A stretch of DNA of 54,592 nucleotides, taken from assembly GCA_024685175.1 (NCBI GenBank), contig JAIKWD010000004.1, forward strand, positions 67,622-122,213, in the 5' to 3' direction. Origin of the DNA: Bacteroidales bacterium (lineage in GTDB: Bacteria > Bacteroidota > Bacteroidia > Bacteroidales > WCHB1-69). Numbering within the stretch: position 1 is the stretch's first letter; every line of letters starts with the position of its first letter. Below the pieces are notes generated by a model. That model saw nothing but the letters and a program-made list of their open reading frames with translations, was not told the origin of the DNA and did not search any database. A program made the translations under genes and the position numbers. Of this stretch, positions 41,656-44,071 are shown piece by piece.

Positions 41656-41775
41656 CTAAAACCCCGCGTACAGACAAGAGATGTCTCCTTCGCTACGAAC
41701 CATCAGCAGCAGAATGGTGAGGGCTACAATGATGAGCACGGCCAATATTTTAATGATTCTCTTTTTCCAAAACAT
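41656..41775 (-). CDS. 39-aa DltX-like membrane microprotein
   Basis: A short frame from ATG 41775 to TAG 41656 encodes 39 residues. A basic start (MFWKKRIIK) precedes one transmembrane helix (ILAVLIIVALTILLLMV), then a polar stretch RSEGDIS and the terminus CLYAGF. It overlaps the end of the DltD-like gene by 26 bases in another frame and is the third cistron of an MBOAT / DltD-like / microprotein operon. In Gram-positive dlt operons the small protein DltX has the same plan, with a C-terminal motif I recall as F-I-Y-x-x-F in which Tyr is proposed to carry the acyl group between DltB and DltD. The Y-x-x-F match at the last residues is visible here; the function is inferred. Confidence 0.68.
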   Translation of the reverse strand: MFWKKRIIKILAVLIIVALTILLLMVRSEGDISCLYAGF

Positions 41776-42859
41776 AATCTTTGAGTTTTAAATAGATGAG
41801 ATATGCTCCGTAGCTGGAGTGATGTTGCCAGTCGTTGAAAGTGCCGGGCATTGATGATAAGTCGGTGGCATCAATGTAGGGGACACCTTCCCGTTCTAGA
41901 ATGCCTTTGATGTTGTTGCAAACATTGGCCATCCGAGGAAGCTCGGATGGGTGCGCGTTAGCAAATGCAATTTGATTGTATGGGCCAATGATAAAGGTGA
42001 GGTCTATATGTCGGGTCTTGCACACGTCTATCATGGCCTTTAATTCGTCATCGCGAAAATGCGACAGGGTGTCTACAGTGAAACTGAAAGTGTTAATGTC
42101 AAAGTCGCCGGCTACGTTGTATTGGAAATTGTAGTTTGCACTATCAATTGTTCCGTAGTAAGGGTAATGAACGGGGCTCATTTTGTCGGGCACCCAGCTG
42201 AGGCGACGATAGAACTTCTTGGTGTCAAGGGCGAAAGCTAGGTCTTGATAGTATTTTCTGCGGGCTTTGTCTATATAGTATTCCGTCCAATCGGAAAGGC
42301 GGTCGGTAAAACTGATGTTTTTAAGATTGGCTTTGAGAATGTTGTTGACGAGTTCGTCGTTAGACTGATTGGCTTTGCGATAAGCAGTTATGGAGGTGTA
42401 TCGATGGAAATAGGGGTGTCCGTTGCGGGCTAGCTTATTGCACCAGTAAGCAGGATTGATGTAGTAGATGATCTTCAACCCCTCAACATTGTCGTTGCTA
42501 AGAAAAAGAGGGAAATAGCATGATGCACTCTTTCCCGCACCGGCACAGACCGAGAATCGGCATTTCAAGGCGGTGTCGGCGTTCAGGAAGTCGGAATAGT
42601 TGCCATTTGGATAGTAGTCGCTTTCTGAAGTGCCCATGATCAGATAGCCGTTGTTCTTTTTGAGATTGTTCAAGAAGAGGTCGGTGAAAAGCGGATTGTT
42701 ATCACGAAACTCTTGGTGACGGATAGTATAGAGTTGTCCATCCACGTCGGGAAACTTGAAGGTGGGAATACATACGGCGAGTAACAACAGCACGACCACG
42801 GAGCAGAGCGCCGTTAGACCGATCCAAGCCAACACTTTCAAACGATACATCCTTTTCAT
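41750..42859 (-). CDS. DltD-like extracytoplasmic acyltransferase partner
   Basis: A 369-aa protein with one N-terminal membrane helix (VLAWIGLTALCSVVVLLLLAV, residues ~9-29) and a periplasmic SGNH-like domain. The candidate nucleophile lies in IMGTSESDYYPNG near residue 77, and the catalytic Asp-His pair in DWQHHSSYGAYL near the C-terminus, the D-x-x-H layout of DltD. In the dlt system DltD works with the MBOAT protein DltB to move D-alanine onto teichoic acid. Here no teichoic acid is expected, so another envelope glycan is likely. It overlaps the MBOAT gene by 4 bases (ATGA) and the microprotein gene by 26 bases, implying coupled translation of all three. Confidence 0.78.
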   Translation of the reverse strand: MKRMYRLKVLAWIGLTALCSVVVLLLLAVCIPTFKFPDVDGQLYTIRHQEFRDNNPLFTDLFLNNLKKNNGYLIMGTSESDYYPNGNYSDFLNADTALKCRFSVCAGAGKSASCYFPLFLSNDNVEGLKIIYYINPAYWCNKLARNGHPYFHRYTSITAYRKANQSNDELVNNILKANLKNISFTDRLSDWTEYYIDKARRKYYQDLAFALDTKKFYRRLSWVPDKMSPVHYPYYGTIDSANYNFQYNVAGDFDINTFSFTVDTLSHFRDDELKAMIDVCKTRHIDLTFIIGPYNQIAFANAHPSELPRMANVCNNIKGILEREGVPYIDATDLSSMPGTFNDWQHHSSYGAYLIYLKLKDYVLEKENH

Positions 42860-44046
42860 GAGAACAGAATATTTAACATGGTTGCTAGTTGGTCAATAGG
42901 ATAATTGAAGAATACCCATCCGATGGTTACAAATATGAAAGTCGCGACAATGCCGACGATTCTAGCTGCATAGCTTTCCGTAGGTTTTTTATTGTGAGTG
43001 AAGATTTTGTACACCGATAGTCCAACCCCATGCCATAACCCCCAAATGACGAAGTTGAGTGTGCTGCCGTGCCATAAGCCGCACACAAGGAAGGTGACGA
43101 GGTAGGCAATGACTGAGACGAGTAGTCTATATTGGACAATCGAGAAACGGTTTAATAAGGCAATTACGGGCTTGAAGACATAGATTTTAAGAAATGTGGA
43201 GAATGTGATGTGCCAGCGCCTCCAGAATTCGGAAATGTTGGTGCTGAGATAAGGGTTGTCAAAGTTCTCCGGAGTCCGGATGCCCATCATGTAAGCCATA
43301 CCGATGGCTATATCGCAGTATCCGGAAAAGTCGATGTAGATATATAGCGAGTAGAGTAGGGCCGCGCTAATCACTGCACCCCAGGGCCCCAGTTGAGGAA
43401 GTAATGTTTGATAATCCGTCGCGTAGGGTAACAACAAGGGTACAATCAACAGGGTCTTTACAGCACCCCAAAAGATCCTTCCAATGCCTGCAAATAGCAT
43501 TCTTACGTTAAATCTCACGTTGGTCTTATGAACCCAATAGTCAAAGTTGTTGTATGTGTCGATGGGCCCAGCCATGAAGGTCGGAAAAAAGAAAAGGTAG
43601 TTGATGAATGAGAAGAAGTTTTGAGTATGGAGGGTTTGCCGGTAACTCTCCACTAACCAGTGGATCAGACGAAATAGGATGTAGGAAAGACCCACTTTCT
43701 CCACCATTCTAAGTCCCTTTATCAGTCCACTAGTTTCGCCAAACCACGATTGTACGAGTGGGTAGTTGCGGAGAGCGAAGACCGTAATCAATAGGGTGAG
43801 CGTAAGTCCTAGTGCCCAACCTGTTTTGCGGAGCCGGAGCAAGAGGCCTGTAAAGTAAAAGATAGCGGTGAATAGTGACAACCAAAAGAGCGAACGCGGC
43901 GAGACTACCTGTGTTAAGATGAGAATGTTGCCTGCGAGCAATAGAACATTGTTCAACCATCCTTTTTTGAAAATCCATTTGCAGACCGTAAAAATACTGA
44001 CAAATAGAAGGATGCTGAAAAAGAGACTGTAGCTGGAGAACAACAT
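42856..44046 (-). CDS. MBOAT-family O-acyltransferase (DltB/AlgI-like)
   Basis: A 396-aa polytopic inner-membrane protein of the MBOAT family with about ten hydrophobic segments. The start is ATG 44046 (MLFSSYSLFFSILLF); a TTG two codons upstream is less likely. Family features are FMAGPIDTYNNFDYW, IYIDFSGYCDIAIGMAYMMGI, FWRRWHITFSTFL and the active-site GLWHGSTLNFVIWGLWHG, where the His of WHG is catalytic. MBOAT proteins carry an acyl group across the membrane and pass it to an extracytoplasmic partner. It heads a three-gene operon with its own promoter. dltA/dltC-type activating genes are absent, so the acyl donor (acetyl-CoA or other) is open. Confidence 0.92.
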   Translation of the reverse strand: MLFSSYSLFFSILLFVSIFTVCKWIFKKGWLNNVLLLAGNILILTQVVSPRSLFWLSLFTAIFYFTGLLLRLRKTGWALGLTLTLLITVFALRNYPLVQSWFGETSGLIKGLRMVEKVGLSYILFRLIHWLVESYRQTLHTQNFFSFINYLFFFPTFMAGPIDTYNNFDYWVHKTNVRFNVRMLFAGIGRIFWGAVKTLLIVPLLLPYATDYQTLLPQLGPWGAVISAALLYSLYIYIDFSGYCDIAIGMAYMMGIRTPENFDNPYLSTNISEFWRRWHITFSTFLKIYVFKPVIALLNRFSIVQYRLLVSVIAYLVTFLVCGLWHGSTLNFVIWGLWHGVGLSVYKIFTHNKKPTESYAARIVGIVATFIFVTIGWVFFNYPIDQLATMLNILFS

Positions 44047-44071
44047 TATCAATGCTTCATATTTGATGTCG

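Follow-up and report, generated by a model that had tools for sequence, protein, structure and literature searches.

A conserved 39-residue microprotein as the proposed tyrosine shuttle of a probable split MBOAT/SGNH acyl relay in Bacteroidales

A 54,592-base stretch of Bacteroidales DNA (contig JAIKWD010000004.1; "the window" denotes the whole stretch analysed) carries a three-gene cassette that encodes an MBOAT acyltransferase, an SGNH protein of the DltD family, and a 39-residue membrane microprotein so short that it may easily be missed. The microprotein gene is real, conserved, and under selection, and it accompanies this particular MBOAT and SGNH protein in the genomes searched. It is highly probable that the cassette as a whole is a split acyl relay in which Tyr36 of the microprotein serves as the shuttle. 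The three products would together acylate a polymer at the periplasmic face of the membrane. A cytoplasmic donor, most likely acyl-CoA, would supply the acyl group to the MBOAT, whose channel would hand it, via His328, to Tyr36 of the microprotein, close to a C-terminus that would lie in the periplasm. From there the tail, now acylated, would swing to Ser78 of the SGNH protein, which would transfer the group onto the polymer. The microprotein would thereby do in trans what the final helix and its FxYxxF tail do in cis in fused-tail MBOATs. We infer the topology, the formation of a complex, the acyl-Tyr chemistry, and the identities of donor, acyl group, and polymer.

The microprotein gene (41656..41775, reverse strand) has an ATG start and a TAG stop and encodes a C-terminus of C-L-Y-A-G-F. 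Tyr36, the proposed acyl-carrying residue, is fourth from the end (codon 41668..41670, reverse strand), and the terminal residue is Phe39 (codon 41659..41661, reverse strand). The start of the gene overlaps the end of the DltD-like SGNH gene by 26 bases (41750..41775, reverse strand). The protein contains a single hydrophobic segment at residues 7-25 (best 19-residue mean 3.11), with a net charge of +4 over the first 9 residues and -1 over the last 13. By hydropathy and charge, this protein of fewer than 50 residues is predicted to have one helix, a positive end inside, and the C-terminus outside. An earlier reading of this DNA (the original prediction) had described a 39-residue frame ending CLYAGF with a 26-base overlap, both confirmed by coordinates and sequence, and one transmembrane helix, which agrees with the hydrophobic segment predicted here. 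The overlap suggests translational coupling. Its length as such is not conserved, since most members of the genus have 26 bases and relatives have 23, 20, 11, or 4 (L155, L073, L154, L053, L010).

Chance occurrence of such a gene was assessed with a filter for frames of 28-130 residues in which a hydrophobic segment is followed by a terminal Tyr-x-x-Phe. The microprotein open reading frame (ORF) is the one match in the 54,592 bases of the window. Nineteen further stretches (295,172 bases) yielded 14 matches, one at each of 14 cassette loci, which had been chosen for holding the cassette, and none in the other five, which are stretches of the window's own genome. Across 681,126 bases from 73 loci around other MBOATs there is one match and no stand-alone gene; the lone match is the end of a fused-tail MBOAT cut by the locus edge.

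A protein search of 100 related genomes with the 39-residue sequence found a full copy in 18 (its own included), a truncated copy in two, and weak matches (E 0.016-3) in 15 more; these and later counts are of genomes, many of them related. The consensus end of the 18 full copies is D-I-x-[CY]-[LI]-Y-x-x-F. Relatives are present across other genera and families of the order, and five further sequences from beside MBOATs of such genera and families bring the set to 21 distinct sequences, with L072, which is the G013 locus, counted once. Leu19, Asp31, Ile32, Tyr36, and Phe39 are unchanged in all 21. Outside the overlap, at codons 10-39, the ratio of nonsynonymous to synonymous change (pN/pS), pooled over pairs of the 18 full copies that are not independent, is 0.41; on the same terms it is 0.16 in tail codons 29-39 versus 0.59 in helix codons 10-28. 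The original prediction had proposed the presence of a short ORF with a terminal Tyr-x-x-Phe at orthologous loci as its test and excess nonsynonymous change as its refutation. The ORF is conserved in the 18 full copies and in further genera and families, and selection on it is purifying.

In a phylum-wide draw of 395 genomes, the microprotein profile matches four genomes at E up to 0.01, and the three matches outside its own genome are weak and end at profile positions 24-36 of 39. The MBOAT profile at E 1e-65 matches only its own genome in this draw. In G008, an identical microprotein match stands at the ends of two contigs (L007; G008:C14 and G008:C9), perhaps as a repeat or an assembly duplication.

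The three genes of the cassette overlap and read leftwards in the order MBOAT, SGNH gene (4-base overlap), and microprotein (26-base overlap). An independent search with the MBOAT found matches of 50-71% identity in the same 18 genomes as the microprotein, including one broken copy (63 and 77% identity in pieces), while the remaining MBOAT matches, among those listed, are at most 39% identical. A single contig carries both MBOAT and microprotein in 16 of the 18 genomes. Among 393 genomes drawn evenly from the order, seven hold the short, tailless MBOAT and eight the microprotein; four of the eight (G532, G596, G633, G733) entered through the MBOAT and were seen to hold the microprotein afterwards. 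The eighth, G650, is new to both profiles and has the end of a short MBOAT, unreported by the MBOAT search, and a DltD-like gene directly upstream of the microprotein.

A survey of ORFs of at least 100 residues within 5-9 kb either side of 17 cassette loci found the DltD-like gene at all 17 and the MBOAT at 15 by script, with the remaining two (L040 and L044) seen separately. The trio is a unit in varied surroundings, because no further gene family occurs at more than three of the 17 loci while MBOAT and DltD-like gene recur. The unit has also been lost in part. In G028 (L018 1480-1590) and G019 (L020), two loci that share 94% identity over 2.2 kb, the first MBOAT codons join the microprotein in frame at about its codon 11; a 36-residue frame is left, and both the DltD-like gene and the remainder of the MBOAT are missing. 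This junction is a deletion scar of the cassette. Among plasmid records, none covers 80% of the MBOAT, and there are 24 partial matches at E 1e-30.

The window MBOAT (42856..44052, reverse strand) is a 398-residue acyltransferase that scores 100.5 bits to PF03062 (cut-off 27), which places it in the MBOAT superfamily, and its predicted model has the DltB fold. It shares 22-24% identity with DltB (PDB 6bug, 8jem). In the alignment with DltB chain 6bug, His281 and His328 correspond to positions 289 and 336, and both are invariant in 34 aligned MBOATs. The protein ends in TMLNILFS, the last helix of the model spans residues 386-397, and the FxYxxF extension of PatA/AlgI-type MBOATs is absent. A tail Tyr occurs in 72 of 77 sampled MBOAT frames. 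Against the TIGR04091 DltB equivalog model the window MBOAT scores 199.8 bits, below the cut-off of 375; three other MBOATs of the short type score 183-217, versus 113-170 for the three fused-tail MBOATs of the same genome. These three belong to further MBOAT cassettes, all with fused FIYFxF tails (L033 2966-5488; L034 4393-6860; L035 5306-9937), the last of which has two SGNH-like genes alongside, the second recognized by eye.

A tree limited to the shared MBOAT core, with the long-branch rows L134, L141, L077, L088, and L034 excluded, sets ten short Bacteroidales MBOATs, DltB, and a Bacteriovoracaceae MBOAT (L074) on one side of a branch and 33 fused-tail MBOATs on the other. Support for this split is 96/64, with 98% of bootstrap trees, and long branches make it unsure. 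In an earlier tree the DltB row was partial and had a very long branch. The grouping of the short type with DltB and the Bacteriovoracaceae MBOAT suggests that the split form may represent an ancient class in its own right and not a Gram-positive speciality.

The SGNH protein (41750..42859, reverse strand) has 369 residues and belongs to the Pfam DltD family, with 28.2 bits to PF04914 (cut-off 22.7) over residues 272-351 only; two distant relatives score 38.0 and 32.3 bits. Gly76-Thr-Ser78-Glu, Asp343, and His346 are invariant in all 15 aligned sequences. Its score to the LTA_DltD equivalog is 24.1 bits, short of the cut-off of 150, and a sequence search of solved structures found no match to it. 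The partners of the three fused-tail MBOATs in the same genome match an AlgX model, GDSL lipase models, and nothing.

DltX (PF12459) and the microprotein are both shorter than 50 residues, with a positive N-terminus, one helix, and a short outside tail in which Tyr is fourth from the end and Phe is terminal (21 of 21 microproteins). Each is paired with an MBOAT of DltB type and an SGNH protein of the DltD family. PMC5541007 gives FIYNEF as the C-terminus of Bacillus thuringiensis DltX and states that, in Gram-negative species that have dlt genes, DltX shares the topology and has no sequence similarity. The DltX-like interpretation made by the original prediction is supported, and of the F-I-Y-x-x-F end that it drew on, the Tyr and the terminal Phe stand, whereas the first residue is Cys or Tyr and not Phe. 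Its placement of dltX beside dltB does not hold, as the gene lies upstream of dltA (dltXABCD) in Gram-positive bacteria (PMC5541007). Unlike dltX, the microprotein gene follows and overlaps the SGNH gene, and neither dltA nor dltC is with the cassette. The microprotein would work like DltX, yet it departs from some of the defining DltX-family features tested, namely the Pfam score, the first Phe, and the dlt operon.

Several observations weigh against a DltX-like shuttle. No member scanned reaches the PF12459 cut-off; two divergent relatives score 13.6 bits (E 0.048) and 14.3 bits (E 0.03), and an unrelated stretch of the same genome scores 14.2. The first position of the motif, sixth from the end, is Cys in 17 of 21 sequences and Tyr in four, compared with Phe in 70 of 73 fused tails. 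A profile match between microprotein and fused tails has a probability of 42% and beats 199 of 200 full column shuffles; when only the 13 tail columns are shuffled, 18 of 200 reach its level, so the match rests largely on hydrophobicity. Comparison with B. thuringiensis DltX, as printed in PMC5541007 and the sole true DltX compared, gives a probability of 0.6% and a gapless alignment with Tyr and Phe in register. In G017 (L054), the microprotein is intact though the MBOAT frame is broken by a stop or frame change, which may be an assembly error.

Other searches with the microprotein were likewise negative. The window sequence has no match to PF12459 at the gathering cut-off of 25 bits and nothing over cut-off in NCBIfam, and its profile matches no solved structure. 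Pfam matches to ODV-E18, Ferlin, and others fall below cut-off and are explained by hydrophobicity. DltX genes were also sought via loci in ten genomes, nine from Bacillota and one from Bacteriovoracaceae, and none passed the cut-off.

No carrier protein or ligase gene recurs alongside the cassette at the 17 loci. The microprotein gene is not part of a dlt operon with DltA and DltC, and in the window's own genome the DltA model has no match over its cut-off; the highest score, 263 of 560 bits, falls within a frame of 2429 residues that contains two carrier domains. As neither DltA nor DltC accompanies the cassette, acyl-CoA is the most likely donor, as for PatA. With confidence a little above even, the cassette can be seen as a carrier-free trio of the DltX/DltB/DltD type, without DltA and DltC, that forms a Bacteroidales lineage of its own and would place a CoA-derived acyl group onto an envelope polymer. 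Several acyl carrier domains occur elsewhere in the genome. An 85-residue carrier protein lies among ketosynthase-like and LolA-like genes (names given by eye) at L032 6165-10673, unlinked to the cassette.

It is unlikely that the trio is a true dlt-like system in which an unlinked ligase and carrier load an amino acid such as D-alanine for the microprotein to pass on. This alternative concerns the donor and is compatible with the shuttle role. The carrier domains of the genome would suit it, as would an MBOAT and SGNH protein that are closer to DltB and DltD than the fused-tail systems of the same genome are; however, the genome lacks a DltA match over cut-off, no family besides the MBOAT and DltD-like gene is common to more than three cassette loci, and both proteins fall below the LTA equivalog cut-offs. 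It is quite unlikely that the microprotein stabilizes the MBOAT-SGNH pair as an accessory or assembly subunit, with a Tyr that carries no acyl group. Its small, single-pass form, its occurrence with the pair, and the loss of the first motif Phe are consistent with such a subunit, but conservation is strongest in the tail, which holds Tyr and the terminal Phe, and not in the helix, and the MBOAT would be left without the tail Tyr that most sampled frames have. That the frame arose by chance or is a relic of the DltD-like gene's end, and yields no product, is scarcely credible: it is short and overlaps another gene, yet 21 distinct sequences from several families conserve it, its pN/pS outside the overlap is low, and the filter found no stand-alone match around other MBOATs. 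Within the reading of the cassette as a carrier-free trio, a bolder version gives the Cys found in place of the first Phe in 17 of 21 sequences a part in acyl transfer.

Separate Tyr carriers in dlt systems and Gram-negative relays with fused tails are already known. Acyl-Tyr is established for Gram-negative PatA, in which the motif is fused to the MBOAT, and PatA/PatB and AlgI-type pairs likewise combine an MBOAT with an SGNH protein and have a tail Tyr carrier that is shown (PatA) or proposed (PMC12148441). For PatB, the same study gave the purified SGNH domain an acetylated hexapeptide of the tail together with glycan acceptors. In these fused systems the tail and two extra helices lie inside the MBOAT, whereas here they are absent from the MBOAT and the tail is on a separate 39-residue protein. 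The extension of the acyl relay to Gram-negative bacteria, which the original prediction had anticipated, was therefore already shown for PatA; what appears new is that, in Bacteroidota, a cassette lacking DltA and DltC has its carrier as a separate microprotein. In the literature, covered mostly by titles and the openings of abstracts, no such microprotein is described in Bacteroidota. A 2025 paper describes MBOAT/SGNH pathways other than Dlt as lacking a DltX-like microprotein (PMC12148441), and the cassette looks like a counter-example to that statement. The findings suggest that the carrier tail is used in two ways within one genome, in cis in three MBOATs and in trans in the microprotein. 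The microprotein is also a small, testable carrier, in that the single Tyr of a 39-residue peptide can be mutated or labeled with the enzymes untouched, and its profile (A3) allows the gene to be found and annotated elsewhere.

In the window, a YifB-like gene lies downstream of the cassette in head-on orientation, and the gene upstream encodes an LD-carboxypeptidase. One other locus has a fragment of the YifB-like gene at its edge. On the Bacteriovoracaceae contig (L074 1066-3579), an SGNH-like gene (by eye; no Pfam match) and a 406-residue MBOAT without a fused tail are followed by a 35-residue ORF, with a TTG start after GGGGGAGGATC, one helix, and the end FQYEF, and then by an 80-residue acyl carrier protein. 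This arrangement is possibly another split, carrier-linked relay in a Gram-negative bacterium.
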